From a virus, in the IMG/VR virus record IMGVR_UViG_3300042527_001431, positions 1-64,000 of that record: 64,000 nucleotides of DNA; one strand, written 5' to 3'. The notes beneath the pieces are model-generated. The model did no database searches, was not told where the DNA came from, and was given only the letters and a program-made list of their open reading frames with translations. The position numbers were made by a program, and so were the translations under genes. The stretch's first letter is position 1, and every line of letters starts with the position of its first letter. Positions 2 through 53,272 of this stretch are shown here, one piece after another.

Positions 2-1258
2 TTATTCGAATGTATTAAGGTTCATATCTTCAAGCCATTGTTCCATATTAAACTCTTCTTCTTCATAAATAAAATTACATAACTTTTTATTTAAATCTTC
101 TTTTCTATTTAAAAGATATTCTTTTAGTTTGTTTGCTTGACCTTTAAATCTTCCATGATCTTTAAAAAGTTCTCTCATAGCAAGTTTTGCACCAATTGGT
201 TTTACATATGCCCATTCTGATTCCGCATGTAACACACCATTCCAAACAACTTCTGGGTGGATTTTTTTTATTTCATACGGTACTTTAGAAAAAAATGATT
301 TACTCTTGCCATTAACCTCTGCATATAAAAAATCTTTATGGCCAGAGTAGTCTGGTGCAATTACCGGCAAACCGCAATAAGCTGCTTCAAACAAAGGAAG
401 CCCAAATCCTTCGCCATGACCAAAATTAACAATTGCTTTAATTTGTGGGTGATTGTAGAGATTGTGTATTTCATCATTGTTCATATCTCCATGTAGTAAA
501 TAAACTTTACACTTCCTATCAGGAAAATTTTTCAACAATTCTTCTAATGCTTTTTGGCATGTAATTTTATCAATAATGGAATTATTTGAATGATTTACTT
601 TACATACCAATCCAACTTTATCCTTTTTAAATTCTTCTAAAAACCATTGAATTGTATTTGGGAGATTTTTTCTTGGACCCCATTGTGCGACACAGAGAAA
701 ATTAAAATCATAATCTAACGGGAATTTCTCTTTGGTATATTCCTCTGTATACTTATTAAATTCTTTTACTGGATATCCAACAACCTCTACTGGAACGTTT
801 AGTTTTAGATCAAGTGTTCTACCAAACTGATCTTGTGCTTTCCAAGAAGTATTAACTAATCCATCTTTTGAATGTTCGGATACTGTAATTACTTTATCGC
901 ATTCTCTGTTGAGAATATCAATCCACTCAGGAGCAACTTTGTTTGACTCAATACCAGCTGTTACTTCAATAGTTATTGGAGCTTTTCTTTTTAATTCATT
1001 TGGGATGCCAACATGAACATAAATATCAAATTGTCCTTGTTGATGGATATATTGAACTGTTTTGTTGATAACAGAATCAAACCACTTTCTTTCTTCATTG
1101 TCTTCAAATAACCAAGAAGTTTGCCCCCAATTTACAGGAATTGCATAAATATCAAATACATCTTCTTGAGATTTAAGAGATCTCATAACAAATCTTGCAT
1201 GTTCACCATATCCTGACTGTGTAAGAATTGGTCCTTCAACTAATACTTTCTTTTTCAT
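2..1258 (-). CDS. Glycosyltransferase, GT4-like (GT-B fold)
   Basis: The 418-residue protein probably transfers a sugar from a nucleotide-sugar donor. The C-terminal half carries the GT4 donor-binding signature (GEGFGLPLFEAAYCGLPVIA, about residues 283-302), with the E-x7-E spacing of GT-B retaining enzymes. The length is normal for the family and there is no signal peptide. The stop codon lies at the window edge. The start ATG overlaps the stop of the upstream glycosyltransferase (TAATG), so the two are probably translationally coupled. Acceptor and sugar cannot be deduced; virion or host-surface glycans, or modified phage DNA, are options. Confidence 0.85.
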   Translation of the reverse strand: MKKKVLVEGPILTQSGYGEHARFVMRSLKSQEDVFDIYAIPVNWGQTSWLFEDNEERKWFDSVINKTVQYIHQQGQFDIYVHVGIPNELKRKAPITIEVTAGIESNKVAPEWIDILNRECDKVITVSEHSKDGLVNTSWKAQDQFGRTLDLKLNVPVEVVGYPVKEFNKYTEEYTKEKFPLDYDFNFLCVAQWGPRKNLPNTIQWFLEEFKKDKVGLVCKVNHSNNSIIDKITCQKALEELLKNFPDRKCKVYLLHGDMNNDEIHNLYNHPQIKAIVNFGHGEGFGLPLFEAAYCGLPVIAPDYSGHKDFLYAEVNGKSKSFFSKVPYEIKKIHPEVVWNGVLHAESEWAYVKPIGAKLAMRELFKDHGRFKGQANKLKEYLLNRKEDLNKKLCNFIYEEEEFNMEQWLEDMNLNTFE

Positions 1259-2520
1259 TATTTAACCTCTTTAAGAGTCCAGCGTTGGTATTGCTTTCTA
1301 TTTTCCCAAGATCCCTTCTCTTCGTAAACCTTGGTCATTAATTCTACCCATTTATTTTGATAATCAGCAAATCCATAGTTCTTTAAAGCGTGCTCTCTGC
1401 CTTTCTGACCAAGTTTCTTTCTCTCAGATCGTGGTAGAGTCCACATATCATAAAGAGCTTGTTTAAAATCTTTTCCAGATACCTTATCCTCATAAATGTA
1501 CGGAACTTCTTGAGATCCAATTACGTATTGGGATGCTGGTTCCATCATTATGCCAAAAGTATCTATTCCGTCTGTTACTTGTTCTTGTAGACCACCTGTT
1601 CGTGGGACAATGATTGGAGTTCCACAATTTAAAGATTCTAGAGTTGAAAGACCAAAACCCTCTGCATCAGAAGCGGATACTGTTACATCTGCCATATTAT
1701 ACATTAATCTTAGGTGTTCTGGTGGAACTCCTTGATTTGAAAACAATACTCTTCCATCATCAATTTGCAATTCTCTAACGATTGCTTCAAGATCTGGGCC
1801 ATTGGGATCTTTTGGGTTTGTATGCATCAAGAGAATTGCCTTGTCTTGACCAACTCTATCCAAAAATTCCTTAAACCACCAAATAATTGCACCAGATTGT
1901 TTACGTCTAGCGTTTCTACTGTTCCAAAAAACAAGCATTGCATCGTCTTTCATATTTGGGAAGTGGACTTTTCTCGCTCGCTTTACTTCTTCTTCTGGCA
2001 TCGGGAAGAAGAAATTAGGATCAATTGCATGAGGTAAGTAATGGCATTCTACTTCTGGCGAGACAGTGCGGACAATATCGTCTGTTACTTTACTAATAGT
2101 AGCAATTACATCATTTGAATCATAAAATGGTTTATTAAATTTTGGATAAGGATAATTATCCCAAACATGATAATAAACCAGAGGAACTAACGGTCTAATC
2201 TCGTTTGCAATGTTCCATAACCACCCATAAAATCTTGGATCTGTCATAAACCAAAGAATATCTGGTTTTTCTGATCTAACAATTGATCTAATAATATTTG
2301 GATCTCCAAATCCATCAACAGGAAAAATAGTCCAATCTTCACCAAATTCCTCTGTCCTGACTGGTTGATAATTCTGGTGTTTAATTGCACCGCCTAATGA
2401 AATTACTTTAAATTTGCCGGACTTTAATAATCCTTCAATAAAATACTTTGTTTGAGTTGCAACACCAGACGGCATCAGTGGATGATCCGAGATGGTAAGA
2501 ACCTTAATCTTCTTTTCCAT
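1258..2520 (-). CDS. Glycosyltransferase, GT4-like (second of a pair)
   Basis: The 420-residue protein has the same GT-B architecture as its downstream neighbour. A donor-site motif (AEGFGLSTLESLNCGTPIIV) sits near residue 290. The N-terminus has the early Gly/Ser loop expected of the acceptor domain (SDHPLMPSGVATQTKYF). It overlaps the next gene by one base. Sequence similarity between the two is limited to the donor domain, so they probably act in sequence in one glycan pathway and are not a recent duplication. A short 40-bp gap precedes it, with AGAGG about eight bases before the ATG. Confidence 0.85.
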   Translation of the reverse strand: MEKKIKVLTISDHPLMPSGVATQTKYFIEGLLKSGKFKVISLGGAIKHQNYQPVRTEEFGEDWTIFPVDGFGDPNIIRSIVRSEKPDILWFMTDPRFYGWLWNIANEIRPLVPLVYYHVWDNYPYPKFNKPFYDSNDVIATISKVTDDIVRTVSPEVECHYLPHAIDPNFFFPMPEEEVKRARKVHFPNMKDDAMLVFWNSRNARRKQSGAIIWWFKEFLDRVGQDKAILLMHTNPKDPNGPDLEAIVRELQIDDGRVLFSNQGVPPEHLRLMYNMADVTVSASDAEGFGLSTLESLNCGTPIIVPRTGGLQEQVTDGIDTFGIMMEPASQYVIGSQEVPYIYEDKVSGKDFKQALYDMWTLPRSERKKLGQKGREHALKNYGFADYQNKWVELMTKVYEEKGSWENRKQYQRWTLKEVK

Positions 2521-25983: not shown

Positions 25984-26054
25984 GGCGGAGGGGTCATGCT
26001 TGATAATACAGATCCAGGGGTCTAGTCCATACCCACTGTTTGGGTGCCTCCGCC
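25984..26054 (+). ncRNA. Structured RNA candidate
   Basis: An 8-bp closing stem (GGCGGAGG at 25984-25991, CCTCCGCC at 26047-26054) encloses 55 bases with an inner hairpin ACCCA-CTGTT-TGGGT and a GATCC/GGGTC pairing. It is tRNA-sized but lacks a T-loop. The stem is equally possible on either strand; a plus-strand promoter lies upstream and a minus-strand promoter lies on the other side. Confidence 0.4.
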
Positions 26055-26123
26055 TATGCTGTTCACCTACCCGTGGTAGAGGAGTGTTGCTATGTAATCC
26101 AGCAGGGGAGCAGTACCACATGC

Positions 26124-26152
26124 ATAATAACGCATTTAACGATGGTTGTCAA
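26124..26152 (-). promoter_or_regulatory. sigma70-like promoter, convergent to the plus-strand one
   Basis: TTGACA (26147-26152), 17 bp, TATTAT (26124-26129). Confidence 0.6.
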
Positions 26153-26335
26153 CAGGTCGGGATAGTGTATTTGGCTGGTTCACTGGTCATCCATTTCCTG
26201 CCCATTATCTATTCTCTCCTACCACGATTATTTAACAGCATCGTTTAGGCTTCTCTATCTCCCCTGCTATCTACTGATTACCTATTCGTATACCATGTGT
26301 GAATGTATGTGATAGTGCAATCTATCTAACACCAT

Positions 26336-26542
26336 TTACTTACCCTCTGACTTCTTCTTTGGTCTAGGTGGTTCTGGTGTCTTTGGATAGGGATAGGTTA
26401 CTCGTTTATCCAGCAGGACTGATTGCTTATCTACTTTCTCTACCCACTGGTTTAGTTTGTGCATGTGGTATGCCATCCATCCCATGGGAATGAATACAAC
26501 AATGCTGAGACCGATAATGAGAATGAGTTCGTTCCTAGTCAT
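26336..26542 (-). CDS. Small single-TM protein
   Basis: This 68-residue protein has one membrane segment (LILIIGLSIVVFIPMGWMAY) followed by a Lys/Pro-rich tail. It overlaps the upstream gene; GGAGG precedes the start. It is the last gene of the early block. Function unknown. Confidence 0.65.
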   Translation of the reverse strand: MTRNELILIIGLSIVVFIPMGWMAYHMHKLNQWVEKVDKQSVLLDKRVTYPYPKTPEPPRPKKKSEGK

Positions 26543-26702
26543 GCGATTGTTCCTCCCTCAGTAGATTGAGTGTGTGTCTTGCAATGTTCTCTGCCATTGA
26601 AAACTCACCCTCATTCATTCTAGTGTTTGCTCTTTCTCTATCCGCAAGGTAACGTGCTAGGTCAAGGATCAAATACAAACTCTTCTTATCTTCCAGTGCC
26701 AT
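26535..26702 (-). CDS. Small helical protein
   Basis: This 55-residue protein starts MALEDKKSLYLILDLARYLA. The ATG at 26702 has GGGAGG upstream; a longer frame exists but lacks such a site. Function unknown. Confidence 0.65.
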   Translation of the reverse strand: MALEDKKSLYLILDLARYLADRERANTRMNEGEFSMAENIARHTLNLLREEQSHD

Positions 26703-26742
26703 GTTTATTCCTCCCGATTGGTTGTTATGGTTCATCTATTCG

Positions 26743-26961
26743 TTATAGGCTTCCGTCTTCCATTTCATCGGAGTAGTCCCATTCTTCATCGTCATCAATG
26801 TCATAGGGATACTGGTCGTCGTTCCACCCTTCTTCTTCCACGAATAGATGTTCGCGACATAGCTTACCATTCTGATCAATATACAAACGATCGTAATGCT
26901 GTCCTCTTGCTTCCGCAAGGAACTTGTATTGTTCGATATGACGGCGCATCCATGCGATCAT
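26743..26961 (-). CDS. Small acidic protein
   Basis: This 72-residue protein has a basic/aromatic N-terminal half and a C-terminal Asp/Glu/Tyr-rich tail. GGAGG precedes the ATG and it overlaps its upstream neighbour by four bases. Function unknown. Confidence 0.6.
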   Translation of the reverse strand: MIAWMRRHIEQYKFLAEARGQHYDRLYIDQNGKLCREHLFVEEEGWNDDQYPYDIDDDEEWDYSDEMEDGSL

Positions 26962-27176
26962 TTGACACCTCCGTTTAATGATTTGATTGCGCTGTATAGA
27001 AAGCCAACCACAACCCCAACGAATAGCACGGGCCAGAATAGACCGAGAACAGAAATGGCAAAGAGTTTATCCCTTGCTTTGTATTGCGAATAATCCTTCG
27101 TATTCTCTGATAGATCAATCGCGACGTAGCAAGTCGTAATCAGCACACATAGGGCATACATTGTATAGAAAGACAT
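26958..27176 (-). CDS. Small two-TM membrane protein
   Basis: This 72-residue protein has two hydrophobic segments (MYALCVLITTCYVAIDL and LGLFWPVLFVGVVVGFLY) separated by a charged loop. GGAG lies upstream. Function unknown. Confidence 0.65.
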   Translation of the reverse strand: MSFYTMYALCVLITTCYVAIDLSENTKDYSQYKARDKLFAISVLGLFWPVLFVGVVVGFLYSAIKSLNGGVK

Positions 27177-27193
27177 TCGCTATCTCCGTTTAT

Positions 27194-27346
27194 CTATCCT
27201 GCCCACAGGTGGTCAAGAGTATCTGAATAATCGAAACCGATCTCATCATCGTTTGAACGTGAAACATCAACGGATGGATCATAGTCGTTGTCCTCGCAGT
27301 AATCATATGCATATTCAAACAACTCGATTAGATCATTTCCATTCAT
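27194..27346 (-). CDS. Small acidic protein
   Basis: This 50-residue protein begins MNGNDLIELFEYAYDY and is rich in Asp and Glu. GGGGG lies before the ATG. The same frame stays open into the tRNA-Thr gene, which I treat as spurious. Function unknown. Confidence 0.55.
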   Translation of the reverse strand: MNGNDLIELFEYAYDYCEDNDYDPSVDVSRSNDDEIGFDYSDTLDHLWAG

Positions 27347-27370
27347 GTTTCCCCCATTCACGATTGTTCG

Positions 27371-27448
27371 TGGTGCCAGCAGGTGGACTCGAACCACCAT
27401 CACAATCCATACCAAGGATTGGCTCTATTCCAATTAAGCTATGCTGGC
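27371..27448 (-). tRNA. tRNA-Thr(GGT)
   Basis: Cloverleaf with acceptor GCCAGCA/TGCTGGC, anticodon loop TTGGTAT and T-arm GGTGG-TTCGAGT-CCACC; the 3' CCA is encoded. Reads ACC codons. Confidence 0.9.
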
Positions 27449-27544
27449 GAATGTGCTAGGGCAGGACTTACAGAACCGTACATTCCAATCGGGTTCATGC
27501 CTAATACCATTGGGTTCGTGGTTGCCCTAGCGATCGTGGGAATG

Positions 27545-27573
27545 ATTATAGCAAGTCCCACGATTTCTGTCAA
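27545..27573 (-). promoter_or_regulatory. Perfect-consensus sigma70 promoter
   Basis: TTGACA (27568-27573), 17 bp, TATAAT (27545-27550). It drives tRNA-Thr and the 26.3-27.3 kb gene cluster. The -35 overlaps the stop of a small peptide gene. Confidence 0.85.
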
Positions 27574-27665
27574 GCTCGATTCTCAACCTTCGTTGCCACC
27601 AAACCAATGGACATGGTGAGCGGAAGGATGGAAAGCATAAGCAGAAGCAGTTGAGAGGTATTCAT
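27570..27665 (-). CDS. 31-residue membrane peptide
   Basis: MNTSQLLLLMLSILPLTMSI followed by a short polar tail; AGGA lies upstream of the ATG. A single hydrophobic helix. Possibly a real micropeptide of the early block. Confidence 0.45.
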   Translation of the reverse strand: MNTSQLLLLMLSILPLTMSIGLVATKVENRA

Positions 27666-27689
27666 TGTTCGTCCTATCTGTTTAGGTGT

Positions 27690-27764
27690 TTATTCTTTCT
27701 CGGACATATAAAGAGTGAAGGAAGCCCAAACGAAAGTGACTCCGATCACAAGCAACCAATCCAT
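27690..27764 (-). CDS. 24-residue membrane peptide
   Basis: MDWLLVIGVTFVWASFTLYM plus a charged end. A strong GGGAGG site five bases before the ATG is the main support. Confidence 0.5.
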   Translation of the reverse strand: MDWLLVIGVTFVWASFTLYMSEKE

Positions 27765-27780
27765 TCTATCCTCCCGCAGT

Positions 27781-27900
27781 CTATTGAATGAACCAAACCC
27801 ACTTTGGACTGTAACGGCTGGATACTGTTCGATGAACCAAGCCACCGCTGAAATGTGTGATTACTTTATTGTAGGTCGGCACTTTCAATTTGAACGTCAT
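27781..27900 (-). CDS. 39-residue small protein
   Basis: A Thr/Lys/Val-rich N-terminus ends in a Trp-rich tail (SPKWVWFIQ). AAGGAG lies upstream of the ATG. It lies directly after tRNA-Ile in the transcript. Function unknown. Confidence 0.55.
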   Translation of the reverse strand: MTFKLKVPTYNKVITHFSGGLVHRTVSSRYSPKWVWFIQ

Positions 27901-27917
27901 GTTGTCTCCTTCGTGTG

Positions 27918-27994
27918 TGGTAGGGGCAGGTGGACTTGAACCACCGACTTTCGCCTTATCAGAGCGATGCTCTAACCAACTGAACTATGCCCCT
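27918..27994 (-). tRNA. tRNA-Ile(GAT)
   Basis: Acceptor AGGGGCA/TGCCCCT, anticodon loop CTGATAA, T-arm GGTGG-TTCAAGT-CCACC, CCA encoded. Confidence 0.9.
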
Positions 27995-28562
27995 GTTGAG
28001 TCTGCTGAATATTCACAAACACTTCATCAAACGTTCCATCAAATACCTTTGTGCAGTTGGATGTGATCTGTGGACTCAGCGCACCCCATCCAATGCGTGG
28101 GCGACGTTGAGCTTTGCATTGATCGCCATACGTTTGCTTCTTGCTAATCTGCACGGCTTCCCATAGCGGGTCATTGTTTGCAAGCGAAACACCATACATA
28201 ACGAAACGATCATTCCGCCAATCTGTTGCATCAAGGAACAGTAGCGTATCCCATGCTTCGGTTGGACCGAATGAGATCGGGCCAGTTGAAGTGAAACACT
28301 TGACTTCCAGCCTGCCGAATGAATCTGAACGGAGATCGCCTGGAAGTTTGACCTTTCCCTTCGTGCCCTTGGGCCACAACGCAGTCTGATCATTCATATG
28401 ATTCTGAACGATAAACTTGGCGATGTTTTCGCTAACTTCCTCTGGCATGTTGGGCAATCGGCTTTTCAATCCAAGCCTCTTGTTTCGTTTCTCAATTTTC
28501 AGTGCATAGTCCTTGAAGTCTGCAAACGACTCTCTCAGTTCTGCCTCTGTGTAAACATCCAT
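27972..28562 (-). CDS. Type II restriction endonuclease-like protein (Bsp6I-like)
   Basis: The 196-residue protein contains SFGRLEVKCFTSTGPISFGP, a likely PD-(D/E)xK core with E-V-K. It continues with WDTLLFLDATDWRND and KKQTYGDQCKAQRRPRIGWG. This pattern matches my recollection of Bsp6I-type endonucleases (GCNGC cutters). No methylase is adjacent; a C5-cytosine methylase lies at 42625. The last 23 bases run into tRNA-Ile, so the true C-terminus lies within a tRNA gene. It may degrade host or competing phage DNA. GGAGA precedes the start. Confidence 0.55.
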   Translation of the reverse strand: MDVYTEAELRESFADFKDYALKIEKRNKRLGLKSRLPNMPEEVSENIAKFIVQNHMNDQTALWPKGTKGKVKLPGDLRSDSFGRLEVKCFTSTGPISFGPTEAWDTLLFLDATDWRNDRFVMYGVSLANNDPLWEAVQISKKQTYGDQCKAQRRPRIGWGALSPQITSNCTKVFDGTFDEVFVNIQQTQQGHSSVG

Positions 28563-28600
28563 TCGTATCTCCGCTCGGTCTATTGTTTATTCATTATCGG

Positions 28601-28672
28601 TGACCTTGCCGGGACTCGAACCCGGATTTAGAGATTGAAAGTCTCTCGTCCTAACCTTTGGACGACAAGGCC
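28601..28672 (-). tRNA. tRNA-Glu(TTC)
   Basis: Anticodon stem GAGA/TCTC with loop CTTTCAA; T-arm CCGGG-TTCGAGT-CCCGG; acceptor closes with one G-T pair. The 3' end reads CCG, so CCA must be added by enzyme. Confidence 0.9.
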
Positions 28673-28701
28673 GATTGTGGGATTGTTAGTCCCGTTTGTT
28701 C

Positions 28702-28860
28702 CTACCACTTGAAACCAATGACTCTTTGCTCTTGCGACTTCGCTAGAAGTTCCTGCCTTTTCTTGTATTCAGAAACCGCTTTAGTCCAGTCTTCCTTTTC
28801 CTGAACAACTGTTTCACGAACCTTGTCCTTGATCTGCTTCACCACTTTAGTTGCATCCAT
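28702..28860 (-). CDS. Small charged coiled-coil protein
   Basis: This 52-residue ORF (MDATKVVKQIKDKVRETVVQ...) has GAGG before a double ATG and is predicted helical with a Trp-containing end. Function unknown. Confidence 0.55.
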   Translation of the reverse strand: MDATKVVKQIKDKVRETVVQEKEDWTKAVSEYKKRQELLAKSQEQRVIGFKW

Positions 28861-28872
28861 CATTTACCTCAA

Positions 28873-29085
28873 TCAGTTGGGGAGTTGGTGCTCGAATAGA
28901 AGTTCGCCCTGTGGACTCTGAATGATTTTTACCTTGCCCGACAGAACGAGAGACACAAGGGCAACACCAATCTGAAACTTGTTCTCGTCCTTTTCTACTT
29001 CAGTTTCCCGTAGCAGTCTAGCGAACAAAGGATCATGCTTGTTATGAAAATCAATCAGTTCTTCATTCGTGTGAACATCATACAT
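28873..29085 (-). CDS. Small protein, unknown
   Basis: This 70-residue protein begins MYDVHTNEELIDFHNKH. AGGAGG six bases before ATG 29085 decides the start. A Val/Leu/Gly-rich central strand may form a small beta domain. Confidence 0.6.
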   Translation of the reverse strand: MYDVHTNEELIDFHNKHDPLFARLLRETEVEKDENKFQIGVALVSLVLSGKVKIIQSPQGELLFEHQLPN

Positions 29086-29103
29086 GATGACCTCCTGCAT
29101 TTG

Positions 29104-29163
29104 TTAGTCCCAGAAACTTTCGTCGTAGATCCAAGAACGAAGTTGCCAATCAATAACGATCAT
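29104..29163 (-). CDS. 19-residue peptide
   Basis: MIVIDWQLRSWIYDESFWD, Trp-rich, with GGAGGG seven bases upstream. It lies directly behind tRNA-Lys. The strong ribosome-binding site is the only support. Confidence 0.4.
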   Translation of the reverse strand: MIVIDWQLRSWIYDESFWD

Positions 29164-29194
29164 TTGTTCCCTCCGTCTATTGTTTATTCGTATC

Positions 29195-29270
29195 TGGTGG
29201 ATCAGGAGGGGATCGAACCCACGACCTACGGATTAAGAGTCCGCTGCTCTACCGACTGAGCTACTGATCC
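29195..29270 (-). tRNA. tRNA-Lys(CTT)
   Basis: Acceptor GGATCAG/CTGATCC, anticodon loop CTCTTAA, T-loop TTCGATC; CCA encoded. Confidence 0.9.
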
Positions 29271-29281
29271 ATTTATTCGTT

Positions 29282-29357
29282 TGGCTCCCCGAGTGTGAAT
29301 CGAACACACGACAAAGTGATTAACAGTCACTCGCTCTACCAACTGAGCTATCGGGAA
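29282..29357 (-). tRNA. tRNA-Asn(GTT)
   Basis: Anticodon loop CTGTTAA on stem GTGA/TCAC; acceptor TTCCCGA/TCGGGGA with one G-T pair; CCA encoded. Confidence 0.9.
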
Positions 29358-29373
29358 ATTGAACACCTATTCA

Positions 29374-29694
29374 CTACACAGAGCGAATGGCGTCGATGAC
29401 ATCTTGAATATTCGATGTATTGTAAACCACCTTGCTGAAGATTTCGACAACCCGATGTGTATCGGCCAGTTGATCGTTGAGGTCATCCAGTTTGCCGTTC
29501 ATAACCCACCGACGAATGTCCATTCGTTGGAGTTCGCCATCATCGCGATTTTCCATATCGTCAAGTTCCATACAACGATCACTAATATCGTTACACTTGA
29601 CTTCCGTCTCTTCGATTTCCTGTCGCAGGGCGATCATGTGTTCCTGCGCCTTTTGCATAACCTCAGCAATCGTCATCTTGCTTGCATCAAACAT
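29374..29694 (-). CDS. Coiled-coil protein
   Basis: This 106-residue protein is almost wholly helical and charged (MIALRQEIEETEVKCNDISD). GGAGG precedes the ATG. It is co-transcribed with tRNA-Asn and tRNA-Lys. Function unknown. Confidence 0.6.
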   Translation of the reverse strand: MFDASKMTIAEVMQKAQEHMIALRQEIEETEVKCNDISDRCMELDDMENRDDGELQRMDIRRWVMNGKLDDLNDQLADTHRVVEIFSKVVYNTSNIQDVIDAIRSV

Positions 29695-29721
29695 ATGGAA
29701 CCTCCGTCTATTGATTGGGTG

Positions 29722-29919
29722 TTATGGGCGAACCCAACCACGCTGAAGCAACTCCCTTACCTGATTATCAAATAGCCTTGCATTTTCTTGTTGAACTTTG
29801 CGAACCAACGCAACATCGCTGGGGTTTTCGGATTCGTAAATGCTTTCGCTAAGGTTTACCTGTTCAATCCAGAACTGTTTGAACCGCTTGGTATCTTTGT
29901 GAATGAAACAGAACAGCAT
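29722..29919 (-). CDS. Small basic helical protein
   Basis: This 65-residue protein begins MLFCFIHKDTKRFKQFWIEQ. The frame remains open upstream through the irregular tRNA, but AGAGG before ATG 29919 marks the likely start. Function unknown. Confidence 0.55.
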   Translation of the reverse strand: MLFCFIHKDTKRFKQFWIEQVNLSESIYESENPSDVALVRKVQQENARLFDNQVRELLQRGWVRP

Positions 29920-29941
29920 TGTGAAACCTCTGTCTATTGAT

Positions 29942-30016
29942 TGGCTTGCACAAGCGGGAGTCGAACCCGCATCACGCGTATATTCACGCGCACTTTCCAT
30001 TTAGACGATTGTGCAA
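29942..30016 (-). tRNA. Irregular tRNA, anticodon uncertain (GAA possible)
   Basis: The acceptor (TTGCACA/TGTGCAA) and T-arm (GCGGG-TTCGACT-CCCGC) are perfect and CCA is encoded. The anticodon arm is odd: CGCG/CGCG stems leave an 8-base loop TGAATATA, and the D-stem does not pair well. GAA (Phe) is the most likely anticodon if the loop is refolded. Confidence 0.6.
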
Positions 30017-30229
30017 GTAGCCGTGCTTGTCATCCACGGTTGGATGGGTTAGCTTCCAATCGGCGTAACCGTCGCCTGCTGTGCTGTTCAACCACAGCGG
30101 GATGGGTTCACTTCCAATCGGTGGAACCACACCGCGAATGGTGGCTTGCGTCCAACTGCATTTCCCTACAGCGGGAAACCGTTGATTGAACCCCATTCTG
30201 TTTGGGGTCTATCGCAAGCCACCGTTTGA
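30017..30229. other. Non-coding stretch with direct repeats and a hairpin
   Basis: Two imperfect 22-bp direct repeats (30042-30063 and 30100-30121; GGATGGGTT, then CTTCCAATCGG) and a hairpin ACCCCA/TGGGGT (30190-30208) lie here. A frame on the minus strand (29984-30196) lacks a ribosome-binding site and runs into the tRNA, so I do not call it. Confidence 0.5.
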
Positions 30230-31045
30230 CTACTCGGCGTCGGTCGCCTCAATCTCGTCATCGGCATCGACCGACTCAGCATCGAGATCGAGGTCATCGC
30301 CGTCATCCGAATCCGCTTCAGCGTCAACCGAAGCGGTATTCAGCGAACCGAGGACACCGGCGAGAGTGTCGCGAGCGGCGATTGCCTCGTCACGCTCGGC
30401 GCGAACCTTACGGAGCAGATCGAGCAACTCAGCCTTGGTCAGCTTATCTTCCGACTTGCCACCCTGTTGAGCGAACGCAAGCGCCGCCTGCGGATTGAGA
30501 TACTGACCATCGGCGTTGCACTCGAACGCCAACTTTGCCTTGGACGGACGACCAGCGCCAAACGGCTCAACCTTGCTGGTCTCAGGGTTAACGAACAAAC
30601 GAGGAGCCTTCTTGGTAGCAGTCTTGGTAGCCATGGTATTCACCTTCTTGGTATTGGTATTGATATTGGAAACAACCGCCGAAACCTTTTCAGTATTAGC
30701 GCAGTCAGCGGTACGCTGCACCAACCTTTCAACAATCTTACCACCCTCAGAGATTAGCGTCAAGGCCACATCCTTATCCGCAATCTTGTAAACCGAGAAC
30801 GAACTTCCGGGTTGCTGAGTCTCAAAGATAACCGAACGCATACGCAGACTCGACAGGATCGACTTGACCTTCTGTTGCGAACGAGCAACATCGTTGTTGA
30901 ACTGCGACATGATTTGCGGTTTACCCGCAACAGTGATGAACGACGCACCCTTGGGGTTTTCGTTCAGGATCGACAGGACTTGCGAATAGAACGGCAAGTC
31001 AGCGTTCGTGTAGAGGAAATTTCCGATCTTGGTGTTCGTGCTCAT
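30230..31045 (-). CDS. DNA-binding-like early protein, basic middle and acidic tail
   Basis: The 271-residue protein has an N-terminal domain (ENPKGASFITVAGKPQIMSQ through SLRMRSVIF) that may be a winged-helix. A Lys/Thr-rich linker (TKKVNTMATKTATKKAPRLF) leads to a globular part, a coiled coil and a strongly acidic Asp tail. It is more GC-rich than the late genes. It is the first protein gene downstream of the six-promoter array and tRNA-Arg, so it is probably made early and in quantity. GAGG precedes the start. Confidence 0.6.
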   Translation of the reverse strand: MSTNTKIGNFLYTNADLPFYSQVLSILNENPKGASFITVAGKPQIMSQFNNDVARSQQKVKSILSSLRMRSVIFETQQPGSSFSVYKIADKDVALTLISEGGKIVERLVQRTADCANTEKVSAVVSNINTNTKKVNTMATKTATKKAPRLFVNPETSKVEPFGAGRPSKAKLAFECNADGQYLNPQAALAFAQQGGKSEDKLTKAELLDLLRKVRAERDEAIAARDTLAGVLGSLNTASVDAEADSDDGDDLDLDAESVDADDEIEATDAE

Positions 31046-31087
31046 TGTAACCTCGCATGGTTAGGGGTTTGCTTCACACTTACTCGG

Positions 31088-31161
31088 CCCGCCTTGCAAG
31101 ACTCGAACTTGCGACCCTCTGCTTAGAAGGCAGATGCTCTATCCAACTGAGCTAAAGGCGG
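31088..31161 (-). tRNA. tRNA-Arg(TCT)
   Basis: Anticodon loop CTTCTAA, acceptor CCGCCTT/AAGGCGG, T-loop TTCGAGT. The 3' end reads CCG. First RNA gene behind the promoter array; reads AGA. Confidence 0.92.
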
Positions 31162-31351
31162 ATTAATCGTACTCACTCTACGTCACGCACTTATTGCGTG
31201 TCGTCTTGATTGCGATGTGGAAGGTCTCGTGACTTCGCAGACCACGGCAGTCCATCATCTTTGCAGAGCAACTCTGTGCTCGCAATCGTTATTCAGTTAT
31301 CAAAGATCCGATGCGGAGTGGGTGAACGCGAAGCTCACCGCCGACTTAGGG

Positions 31352-31380
31352 ATTGTACACCAAGTAGATTCGCTTGTCAA
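31352..31380 (-). promoter_or_regulatory. Array promoter P1
   Basis: TTGACA (31375-31380), 17 bp, TACAAT. The transcript would begin with hairpin GGTGAGC-TTCGC-GTTCACC (31321-31339). Confidence 0.8.
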
Positions 31381-31457
31381 GAGCTTGCAGTATCACGTTT
31401 CCGATTTCTGCTTCTCTCCGTCGTTTCGCGAACCGCTCAGGCTCGCTCACATTCAGG

Positions 31458-31486
31458 AGTTTACCACAACTTCGAACCGTTGTCAA
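31458..31486 (-). promoter_or_regulatory. Array promoter P2
   Basis: TTGACA, 17 bp containing GTTGTGG, TAAACT. Followed by hairpin GCGAGCC-TGAGC-GGTTCGC (31428-31446). Preceded by the shared block ACTGCGAGG. Confidence 0.8.
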
Positions 31487-31561
31487 GCCCTCGCAGTATC
31501 GCGTTTCTCAGTACCGCGTTTCTTAATCTCGGCAACCGCTCAGGTCGCCGTCACAGTCAGG

Positions 31562-31590
31562 ATCTTACCACAACTCGGAACCGCTGTCAA
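31562..31590 (-). promoter_or_regulatory. Array promoter P3
   Basis: TTGACA, 17 bp ending GTTGTGG, TAAGAT. Followed by hairpin CGGCGACC-TGAGC-GGTTGCCG (31530-31550). Confidence 0.8.
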
Positions 31591-31618
31591 TACCTCGCGG
31601 TCTCACGTTTCGGTTCAG

Positions 31619-31699
31619 TTAGCCGTTCAGCAGAATAACCAATTTGGCAATCGTCAGACCAAGAACAATACCCTTCAGTGCGTCATTCGTAATCGACAT
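31619..31699 (-). CDS. 26-residue membrane peptide between promoters P3 and P4
   Basis: MSITNDALKGIVLGLTIAKL and a short hydrophobic end, with AAGGAGG four bases before the ATG. The P4 5' hairpin ends one base before this ribosome-binding site. A strongly expressed micropeptide is likely. Confidence 0.6.
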   Translation of the reverse strand: MSITNDALKGIVLGLTIAKLVILLNG

Positions 31700-31732
31700 T
31701 TCGCCTCCTTGCGGAACCATTCCGCGTTTAGT

Positions 31733-31761
31733 AGTCTACCACAACCAGATTCGGTTGTCAA
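31733..31761 (-). promoter_or_regulatory. Array promoter P4
   Basis: TTGACA, 17 bp ending GTTGTGG, TAGACT. Followed by hairpin GCGGAA-TGG-TTCCGC (31711-31725) and the micropeptide gene. Confidence 0.8.
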
Positions 31762-31854
31762 GCCCTCGCAGTATCACGTTTGCGAATCTACTCGGTTTTC
31801 AAGGAGCGTTTGCGGTTTCAGAGCGCGAAGCCCGTTTCCCGCGTTGACCTTAGT

Positions 31855-31883
31855 AGCTTACCACAACTTGGAACGGTTGTCAA
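31855..31883 (-). promoter_or_regulatory. Array promoter P5
   Basis: TTGACA, 17 bp ending GTTGTGG, TAAGCT. A weaker hairpin GGGC-TTCGC-GCTC lies downstream. Confidence 0.78.
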
Positions 31884-31961
31884 GACCTCGCAGTCTCGCG
31901 TTCCCCGGTTTGCCGTTTGCCGTTTCGAGAAACCGCGCAGGTCTCTCGCTTTGACTTAGGT

Positions 31962-31990
31962 ATCTTACCCGATCTGTTTGCTGGCGTCAA
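31962..31990 (-). promoter_or_regulatory. Array promoter P6
   Basis: TTGACG, 17 bp, TAAGAT. Followed by hairpin CGAGAGACC-TGCGC-GGTTTCTCG (31926-31948). Confidence 0.72.
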
Positions 31991-32167
31991 GACCTCTCAG
32001 TCTGCCGTTTGGCTTTCAGTCCCTCATATACAAAGTGAGGCATAAAGATCTTTTTTTTCAGTGTCACATATGCTTTCAGCGGAATATGCTGAGGAAGTTA
32101 AATGCCTACTTTATCGAGAATGATTATTAAGTAATAAAGTATTCAACAATCAAATAAATAGAACTAT

Positions 32168-32201
32168 TAATCTTTATTAAGTTCTAATCTTTATTAAGTT
32201 T
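32168..32201. repeat. 17-bp tandem duplication at a stop codon
   Basis: TAATCTTTATTAAGTT[CT] occurs twice head to tail (16 of 17 identical), spanning the stop codon of the gene at 32184. Confidence 0.85.
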
Positions 32202-32522
32202 TAAAGGTATTAACTCTTCATATCTTAAATAATCAAGAACAATTCTTGGATTCTCCAGAGCAACTATTTTATAAGAGTATCTGTGATCCCGAATCATATG
32301 TGATGATGATTCAATAGGTTTTTCCTTAGACGAGACTACAAATAATACTTCATTACTTGCTGTTTTATAACCAGATAAAATTTTATACATGTACCAAACA
32401 TGTGGAGCGGTTAAAACAATGTCTCCAACCTCATATTCGTATTCATCATACAAGATAGTTATTCCGTTTTCGATTTTTTCTTTTATACCATGAATATTGT
32501 TTGCCACGGAATAATTTGACAT
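32184..32522 (-). CDS. Small protein, unknown
   Basis: This 112-residue protein has a beta-rich middle (YEVGDIVLTAPHVWYMYKIL) like a small SH3/RNA-binding barrel, but no family was recognised. GAGGG precedes the ATG. The C-terminus is duplicated beyond its stop codon at DNA level. Confidence 0.6.
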   Translation of the reverse strand: MSNYSVANNIHGIKEKIENGITILYDEYEYEVGDIVLTAPHVWYMYKILSGYKTASNEVLFVVSSKEKPIESSSHMIRDHRYSYKIVALENPRIVLDYLRYEELIPLKLNKD

Positions 32523-39204: not shown

Positions 39205-39563
39205 TGGTGGATCTGGCGGGAGTCGAACCCGCGTCTCACATAGTTTTTATGATTACTCATTCACAGGAATAGTCAAGCACCCAACCTACCCTTGACAAAA
39301 CACCTGGGTTACAGGGACTTCATACTGATTTATTCAGGGCAAAACCAGTTAGAAAAGCCGATGAATCTTGTTTTCGATAAGATTCCAACCTATCCAAACT
39401 TATTTTACAGAGTGTTTGGAGACTCCGTGATTTAAGCCGCTACGGCGTAATCAAAAGCAACGTTGTCGTTGGCAATTAAACATTTAAGCGTTTTTACGAT
39501 GCCTCGCTCCCCATCGTCCTGCATAATCATAAAACTCTACCCGATCGATACCATTTCAGACCC
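39205..39563 (-). ncRNA. ssrA: tmRNA (transfer-messenger RNA)
   Basis: A 359-base one-piece tmRNA. The 5' end GGGTCTG pairs with CAGATCC near the 3' end, followed by A-CCA; the T-arm is GCGGG-TTCGACT-CCCGC. The tag reading frame at 39432-39473 encodes ANDNVAFDYAVAA and a TAA stop, a proteobacterial-type degradation tag ending in AA. Pseudoknot-like segments lie between. It should rescue stalled ribosomes and mark products for proteolysis, perhaps replacing the host RNA when host transcripts decay. Confidence 0.92.
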
Positions 39564-52140: not shown

Positions 52141-53208
52141 CTAACCGACCTTCTTACCAGTCAGGATCTGAACCGCATACAGCGAAGCAAGACCCTTGCT
52201 GGTGGTCTGCTTCATGATCAGCGGGTTGTTCAACTTACCGAACACACCTGCGATCTTGGTTGCCGCCTCGGAAGGCAGATTGACATAGTACTCCGCGACA
52301 TGCTTTGCCTGATCGGCATCGAGTTGCGAATCAAATACCTTGCTTGCACCCAACTTCTCGATCAGAGCGAGGTGTTCGTTCAGCGAGAACTTCTTGGTCA
52401 TCTTGAGAGCCTTGCCGTTCAGAACGTCCTCAACCTTAACCTGACGGTCATAGTTACGAACGAAGTCGGTGAAGGCAGTCGAAGCCTCGAAACCAACGAA
52501 ACCCTGAACGATTGCCTGAAGTTCAGGAGTTGCACCCTTCTCAATCAACTTGCTCTTGCTGATTGCAGTCGAAGCACGCGCCCAAGAACGACGAGAAGGA
52601 TACTTCTTGTTCGGCTCAAAGGTATCGGTGTGCTCCAAGTGACCACGGTTGTTGTTGATAAAGTCCCACACTTCGCCAGCGACGTTATCCTTAGCCCACG
52701 TCAGCCAATCCTCAACGGTCGGCTCGACATCGAAAGTGGTGTAACGATCCAACTCAGCGGGATCCATGTCCGAAACCTGATAGTTGGAACCGTGGATACC
52801 ACCGTTGACTGCGGCGAACATCAAAGTACCGGGGTGAATGTGCTTACCCGCCAACTTGCGGGAGTCCATCAACTCGAACAGACCCTGACGAACCTCGGTC
52901 GCACCACGGTCAACCTCGTCGAAGAACAGAACCACAGGACGCTCACAGGCATCTTGAAACCAATCCGACGCAGCCCACTTGGTCACAGTCGCATTAACGC
53001 GTTGCTCAAGAGTAGGCAGACCGATCAGATCGCCTTCGGTCATCTGCGAAGCACGACGCTCGATAACGTCCAGAGTGCGACGACCAGCGAACTGATAGAC
53101 AAGTTGCGACTTACCAATACCGTGACGACCACGGATAAGGACGGGGAAACCAGCGTCAATCACGCTGTCAACGATTGCATTGAAAGTACCGAACGAAATA
53201 GTAGCCAT
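52141..53208 (-). CDS. MoxR-like AAA+ ATPase
   Basis: The 355-residue ATPase has Walker A VLIRGRHGIGKSQLV, Walker B VVLFFDEVDR and sensor-like LMFAAVNGG. The layout is that of the MoxR/RavA family (a helix-2 insert after QMTEGDLIGLP), which works with VWA proteins. It lies immediately upstream of its VWA partner but has its own promoter. Both genes are more GC-rich than the late genes, which may reflect recent acquisition. GAGG precedes ATG 53208. Confidence 0.85.
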   Translation of the reverse strand: MATISFGTFNAIVDSVIDAGFPVLIRGRHGIGKSQLVYQFAGRRTLDVIERRASQMTEGDLIGLPTLEQRVNATVTKWAASDWFQDACERPVVLFFDEVDRGATEVRQGLFELMDSRKLAGKHIHPGTLMFAAVNGGIHGSNYQVSDMDPAELDRYTTFDVEPTVEDWLTWAKDNVAGEVWDFINNNRGHLEHTDTFEPNKKYPSRRSWARASTAISKSKLIEKGATPELQAIVQGFVGFEASTAFTDFVRNYDRQVKVEDVLNGKALKMTKKFSLNEHLALIEKLGASKVFDSQLDADQAKHVAEYYVNLPSEAATKIAGVFGKLNNPLIMKQTTSKGLASLYAVQILTGKKVG

Positions 53209-53272
53209 TGTAGAAACCTCAAAGTAAATAGGAACCAAGTAAAAAGTGCCTTGAACCGTTCAAGACACCCAC

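Follow-up and report, generated by a model that had tools for sequence, protein, structure and literature searches.

The region upstream of the tRNA-Arg gene of a large tailed phage carries six tandem promoters, several of them followed by hairpins with a common tip, then a boxA-like sequence and a structured RNA that is conserved, and related phages have a homologous array at the same place. We consider it probable that this region is a phage version of an rRNA-operon leader, in which stacked promoters together with Nus/boxA antitermination would drive an operon of tRNAs and a winged-helix protein.

The window, that is, the whole stretch of DNA analysed, comprises 64 kb of the 77,468-base virus record IMGVR_UViG_3300042527_001431 (G000 in the comparisons below). 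It encodes a GroEL-type chaperonin, PhoH, glycosyltransferases, an endolysin, an HNH endonuclease and a MoxR-like ATPase as well as about 15 tRNAs and one tmRNA, and nearly all of its genes and promoters lie on the minus strand. The tmRNA gene (39205-39563, minus strand) specifies the tag ANDNVAFDYAVAA, which recalls alphaproteobacterial tags and is a lead to the host.

Stacked promoters upstream of a tRNA operon

An earlier note on this DNA had described six strong promoters in tandem, aimed at tRNA-Arg and the gene at 30230. All six –35/–10 pairs are present on the minus strand between 31990 and 31352, each with a 17-bp spacer and the –10 hexamer that had been quoted, and their position and direction support the proposed targets. 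The array and the operon below it consist of the following features:

31962..31990, minus strand: promoter P6, TTGACG-17-TAAGAT, first unit of the array
31855..31883, minus strand: promoter P5, TTGACA-17-TAAGCT, extended –10 (TGG)
31733..31761, minus strand: promoter P4, TTGACA-17-TAGACT, extended –10
31619..31699, minus strand: small ORF MSITNDALKGIVLGLTIAKLVILLNG (26 aa, hydrophobic) between P4 and P3, after the hairpin GCGGAATGGTTCCGC and an AAGGAGG ribosome-binding site
31562..31590, minus strand: promoter P3, TTGACA-17-TAAGAT, extended –10
31458..31486, minus strand: promoter P2, TTGACA-17-TAAACT, extended –10
31352..31380, minus strand: promoter P1, TTGACA-17-TACAAT, last of the array
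31086..31161, minus strand: tRNA-Arg (TCT), first stable-RNA gene of the operon, also found in both relatives that span this place
30230..31045, minus strand: ORF271, with a winged-helix N-terminal domain and an acidic C-terminal tail
27371..30016, minus strand: downstream tRNA genes (a tRNA with an odd anticodon loop, Asn, Lys, Glu, Ile, Thr)

From P1 to P6, the start-to-start distances are 106, 104, 171, 122 and 107 bp, in agreement with the intervals of 100-170 bp described before. The interval between P4 and P3 is longer because the small ORF, which was not seen in the arrays of the two relatives, is located there. Further shared features had been recognized correctly: GTTGTGG precedes the –10 region of P2 to P5, and five of the six promoters show a ACTGCGAGG-like block before the –35 region with 0-1 mismatch; P1 has ACTGCAAGC. 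P2 to P4 were flagged as extended –10 promoters, and P5 carries the same TGG before its –10 region; the –10 hexamers of P2 to P6 agree with the TATAAT consensus at three to four of six positions. The units are not an assembly duplication, since the copies are just 64-81% identical to the reference copy. We also rejected the possibility that the array is coding sequence of the opposite strand (ORF 31217-31954), because the repeats would be read in different frames (spacings modulo 3 of 2, 2, 0, 2 and 1).

Promoters of this type are common in the window: the pattern TTGACR-N17-TANNNT has 35 matches, whereas shuffled sequences give 1.72 on average and never more than 5. This indicates that the entire phage relies on host-type promoters and keeps their spacer rigidly at 17 bp. 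The array upstream of tRNA-Arg is the densest promoter place; if promoters were only as frequent there as elsewhere in the record, the chance of finding five more within 640 bp would be about 3e-6. The G+C content is 45-53% across the tRNA operon and the array (window 26000-32000) compared with 37% in the record, and 58% in the array of the relative G003 compared with 40% in its record.

Inverted repeats enclose many promoters of this phage group, with the left arm lying in the spacer or the –10 region and the right arm in several cases covering the ribosome-binding site just 5′ of the ATG. Such promoters occur in the window at 40089-40030 and 55254-55190 (both minus strand), at 65981 of the record, and in the relatives G002 (91633, 107456), G003 (14688, 40412) and G004 (53628). 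Eight strong stems (score ≥24) were found at promoters, compared with 0.3 expected, and both arms change in the relatives. By this arrangement, the start site would be hidden in read-through transcripts and accessible in those that begin at the inner promoter. Such hiding and freeing of a start site has been described for the T4 genes e, soc, 49 and I-TevI (PMC3014915); in this phage group, it would involve σ70-type promoters and many genes.

The operon contains seven tRNA-like genes. A weak terminator-like site is located near 27077 on the minus strand, beyond tRNA-Arg, ORF271 and five or more further tRNA genes, and no minus-strand terminator-like site was found between the array and this position. 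The suggestion of the earlier note that the units may make several short RNAs is not supported, as terminator-like sites between the units are lacking.

Structure prediction for ORF271 gave a winged-helix domain at residues 1-115 with high confidence and an acidic C-terminus with low confidence. The structures that it matches best are MarR-type regulators (E ∼6e-3 to 5e-2), which is enough to support a fold class but nothing beyond that. ORF271 and its homologues in all three phages contain a conserved internal ATG (in the window at 30634, frame 30634-30230, minus strand) with a AAGGTGAA-like site upstream that resembles a ribosome-binding sequence. Because this ATG heads the most conserved half of ORF271, a second, shorter product is likely, and a gene within the gene could possibly encode an acidic protein of about 134 amino acids. 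Just below ORF271 lies the tRNA-like gene with an odd anticodon loop, to which ARAGORN assigns no amino acid (window 29942-30016, minus strand; a counterpart is found below ORF271 in a second phage, contig L014 at 1191-1266, minus strand). Direct repeats GATGGGTT.ACTTCCAATCGG are located beside it near 30040-30130.

Relatives were reached via the ATPase gene (52141-53238), which yielded records of the same phage group. Two of them span the place of the array: G003 (IMGVR 3300007735_001031) and G004 (IMGVR 3300007734_000755). The array is known from three phages only, since the contigs of the two closest relatives (G001 and G002) end before it. ORF271 homologues are 48% identical in G003 and 40% in G004, tRNA-Arg(TCT) lies 5′ of each, and the same neighboring genes flank the array in all three phages. 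Both relatives carry four promoters above the tRNA, at intervals of 122-192 bp in G003 and 112-119 bp in G004 and with a 17-bp spacer in every case. The absence of such an array from relatives would have spoken against the interpretation of the earlier note; instead, homologous arrays are found at the same place in both phages.

These arrays were detected solely by promoter pattern and synteny: blastn revealed no DNA similar to the array in the relatives, and exact motif scans were likewise negative. The 25-mers upstream of the –35 regions are 64% identical within a genome compared with 40% between genomes. The architecture of the array is therefore conserved, whereas each lineage renews the sequence for itself, as tandem duplications that are selected for their function would do. 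Searches with ORF271 alone found no relatives in viral contigs, with the single sequence as query, and none in annotated phages. Among 80 further phage loci that have the neighboring 147-165-aa protein in common, promoter clusters were limited to weak groups of three members (L075, L082).

Hairpins with a shared tip

Most units are predicted to give transcripts that begin with GTSA followed by a hairpin. The hairpins with a common tip that had been noticed after P2, P3 and P6 are present as described:

31926..31948, minus strand: P6 hairpin CGAGAGACC-TGCGC-GGTTTCTCG, shared tip
31530..31550, minus strand: P3 hairpin CGGCGACC-TGAGC-GGTTGCCG, shared tip
31428..31446, minus strand: P2 hairpin GCGAGCC-TGAGC-GGTTCGC, shared tip

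Other 5′ hairpins had been assigned to P1, P4 and P5; those of P1 and P4 were recovered, and the one of P5 is not convincing (z 0.01). The shared tip can be written as C[CT]-T[GAC][AC]GC-GG[T] with a 5-nt loop, and it follows 7 of the 11 upstream-unit promoters checked (three of five in the window, two of three in G003 and all in G004, with one duplicate).

The earlier note had interpreted the differing stems as compensatory change. We examined this by a covariation test on seven distinct hairpins from the three phages, aligned without gaps on the tip. In this alignment, 90.5% of the cells are paired, compared with 69.1% (sd 3.8) after shuffling. Both sides have changed in five of nine base pairs, and there are 13 doubly changed cells compared with 3.3 in the shuffled sets. 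The shuffles ignore relatedness; a control that retains it, in which the partner is slid by 1-3 columns, reduces pairing to 24-48%. On the basis of this covariation, we regard the shared-tip hairpins as real RNA structures.

The five records contain 13 copies of the tip motif, each of them placed 8-20 nt below a –10 box. In the window and in G001, G002, G003 and G004, one copy lies in the leader of the ATPase gene, where the tip letters pair in a shifted register, so that either structure or sequence may be recognized. The hairpins are not terminators, because they lack T tracts. Combinations of tip and promoter in other viral contigs (L231, L234-L236, L238, L239) were judged to be chance matches, as their number is about that given by the specificity of the pattern and none is accompanied by an array. 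In 0.79 Mb of bacterial boxA loci, we found three tip motifs, none of them at an rRNA gene as inspected by eye. The tip hairpin may serve in protection of the 5′ end, as a protein site or as an element that modifies the polymerase. It is not simply part of a boxA system, since it is absent from the last unit and present at the ATPase gene.

The last unit and a three-way-junction RNA

In all three phages, the promoter nearest to the tRNA lacks the shared tip. The earlier account was incomplete here: the last unit is special in that it is followed by a hairpin of another kind and, below this, by a boxA-like sequence and then a structured RNA that is conserved:

31321..31339, minus strand: P1 hairpin GGTGAGC-TTCGC-GTTCACC, no shared tip, in boxB position
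31290..31308, minus strand: boxA-like GATCTTTGATAACTGAATA, a sequence match
31208..31287, minus strand: conserved structured RNA with outer stem GATTGC/GCAATC, hairpin GAGCA/TGCTC, a TGCAAARATGA-like single strand and a third stem

The boxA-like elements of the relatives read GCTCTATGACAACTGAAA in G003 and GAACTTTGATAATTGAATA in G004, and the distance from the last promoter to boxA is 30-75 nt in all three phages. BoxA is a short motif, with one exact match in the window and weaker ones in the relatives (G003: CTCTATGACAACTG); G003 shows a second boxA-like element, GCTCTTTGACAACTG, below its first promoter. The order promoter-hairpin-boxA includes a clear hairpin in the window and in G004, and the fold in G003 is not better than that of shuffled sequence (z 0.34).

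In the leaders of rrn operons, promoter P2 is followed by boxB, boxA and boxC, with boxA as the essential part (PMC10250234), and the boxA sequences of rRNA operons are highly conserved (PMC5725501). We scanned bacterial genomes with the pattern GMWCTTTGAYAAYTGAATA, which may not be the consensus of the host, and obtained at least 80 matches. Among the matches listed, a 16S/23S end marker was nearby in 19 of 80 cases, at a distance of no more than about 450 nt in 17 of these, and the majority of the 80 had no rRNA marker in their vicinity; by chance, we estimate proximity to an rRNA gene for well under one in 80. The rRNA-adjoining elements among the matches listed stem from Planctomycetes, Nitrospira, Alpha-, Delta-, Zeta- and Gammaproteobacteria and others. 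In Firmicutes, the pattern precedes a repeated element, CTCTTTGACAACTGAATAAAGCAGACAGATACGTTTGTGAGATAG..., that is not rRNA (L136, L151, L193, L125, L133 and similar genome contigs) and is perhaps another untranslated RNA using boxA.

Folding each phage sequence separately gave the same three-way junction directly below boxA in all three phages. The outer stems are GATTGC/GCAATC, GGTTGC/GCAACC and GATTGT/GCAATC, the first hairpins GAGCA/TGCTC, GAAGTC/GACTTC and GAGAAC/GTTCTC, the single strand reads TGCAARRAYGA and the third stem varies in length. Read from the folds of three sequences, these changes are suggestive of covariation. Single-sequence fold energies are not exceptional (z –0.21 in the window, –1.01 in G004). 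A covariance model built from these two elements finds the one of G003 as the third match in 767 kb, at the expected place and with an E value of 9.2e-6, to which sequence conservation contributes; the next match has an E value of 0.7. The model holds only 12 shared pairs because the MAFFT columns mis-stack parts of the junction. In an Rfam scan, only tRNA families passed the gathering score and the structured RNA had no match; it was not found in more distant phages. Taken together, the last unit without tip, the boxA-like sequence and the structured RNA give the whole region the appearance of an rRNA-operon leader.

Comparison with known leaders and possible functions

Like the E. coli rrn leader (P1/P2, boxB-boxA-boxC; rrnTAC), the phage region combines tandem strong σ70-type promoters with a hairpin and then a boxA, by sequence, below the last promoter and with an untranslated stable RNA downstream (PMC10250234). 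In contrast to the two promoters of rrn, the phage arrays have six or four, and each upstream unit can carry a hairpin of its own. The phage operon consists of tRNAs and a protein gene with no rRNA in the region, and instead of a boxC or a leader-trailer helix, neither of which was recognized, we found a local three-way-junction RNA. We therefore propose that the region works like an rrn leader without being a member of this family. Fast-growing mycobacteria likewise have multi-promoter rrn operons, in which a single stable-RNA operon is served by a series of promoters; here, the genome is that of a phage, and the units are recent duplications with their own hairpins.

According to this model, six stacked promoters for the host primary σ factor would load polymerase at a high rate onto one transcript. 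Transcripts from the upstream promoters would begin with, or run through, the 5′ hairpins with their conserved tip, whose most likely role is to bind a common factor or to shield the 5′ end. A single boxA would then be common to all transcripts; there, the polymerase would be modified by host NusB and S10 and thereby become resistant to Rho while reading mostly untranslated RNA. The structured RNA, tRNA-Arg, the winged-helix gene and the further, distal tRNAs would then be read out in this order.

The most serious competitor attributes the effect to the tip. In a put/nut-like system of the phage's own, the tip would bind polymerase or a phage protein and make the transcripts antiterminating, including that of the ATPase gene, with boxA being incidental. 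In HK022, the put sites close below PL and PR are two-hairpin cis elements with which phage transcripts begin, and a lambda nut site likewise combines a phage boxA and a hairpin with a 5-nt loop near the transcript start. The position of the tip favors this idea, since it adjoins the start of transcription both in the array and, in all four related phages, in the ATPase leader and is found nowhere else in the five records, as does the combination of a variable stem and a fixed tip, the look of a protein- or polymerase-binding hairpin. However, no array has the tip in its last unit, which would leave the P1 transcript unmodified, and the ATPase leader folds the tip letters in a shifted register. 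Compared with put RNA, each unit has one shared-tip hairpin rather than two stem-loops, repeated with the promoters and joined by boxA. In lambda nut, boxA precedes boxB, whereas the array hairpins precede boxA and differ in loop sequence; N protein is part of the lambda system, and none is known for this phage. We consider this explanation unlikely. A combined reading is at best a tentative possibility: the shared-tip hairpin could be the binding site of a factor, phage-encoded or on RNA polymerase, that makes transcripts terminator-resistant and is common to the tRNA operon and the ATPase gene, and together with the boxA-linked three-way-junction RNA it would define a new class of phage antitermination leader. 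Tandem strong promoters for host polymerase are themselves familiar in phages from T7 A1-A3 and the SPO1 early clusters, for which we know of no conserved hairpin at each promoter and no boxA or tRNA operon as a hallmark.

The predicted winged-helix domain of ORF271, with its resemblance to MarR-type regulators, raises the idea of an autoregulated switch in which this protein binds the lineage-specific block before each –35 region and represses or activates its own promoters. Co-evolving operators would indeed be alike within and unlike between genomes (64% and 40%, see above), but concerted turnover of tandem duplications gives the same pattern, the blocks lack clear dyad symmetry and the structure match is weak (best E 6e-3), which makes such a switch quite improbable. 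The long multi-hairpin leader could also be the product itself, a sponge titrating a host RNA-binding protein with the tRNA and the ORF as passengers. A single P6 transcript would hold as many as three copies of the tip, all three phages repeat the hairpin and further structured RNA follows; against these points stand the strict synteny with tRNA-Arg and ORF271, the single tip copy in the ATPase leader and the lack of a terminator or processing site that would mark the end of the RNA, and we regard a sponge as very improbable. Transcription-primed origins are known in T4, and the direct repeats of the array adjoin an AT-rich stretch (32100-32210), as would suit initiation at iteron-like repeats. 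A GC-skew turn is absent from the site, the repeat sequence is not kept between the phages, and what is conserved are promoter hexamers, the 17-bp spacing and RNA hairpins rather than a protein-binding iteron; a replication origin is thus the most far-fetched of these explanations.

Large phages carry many tRNA genes, and how these are strongly expressed is poorly described. In the rRNA-operon-like leader proposed here, selection would keep the layout while the sequence turns over, and two of its parts, the tip hairpin and the boxA-linked three-way junction, are short RNA elements without a curated family. If our interpretation is true, the phage uses the stable-RNA machinery of its host, stacked promoters and Nus antitermination, for its own tRNAs.
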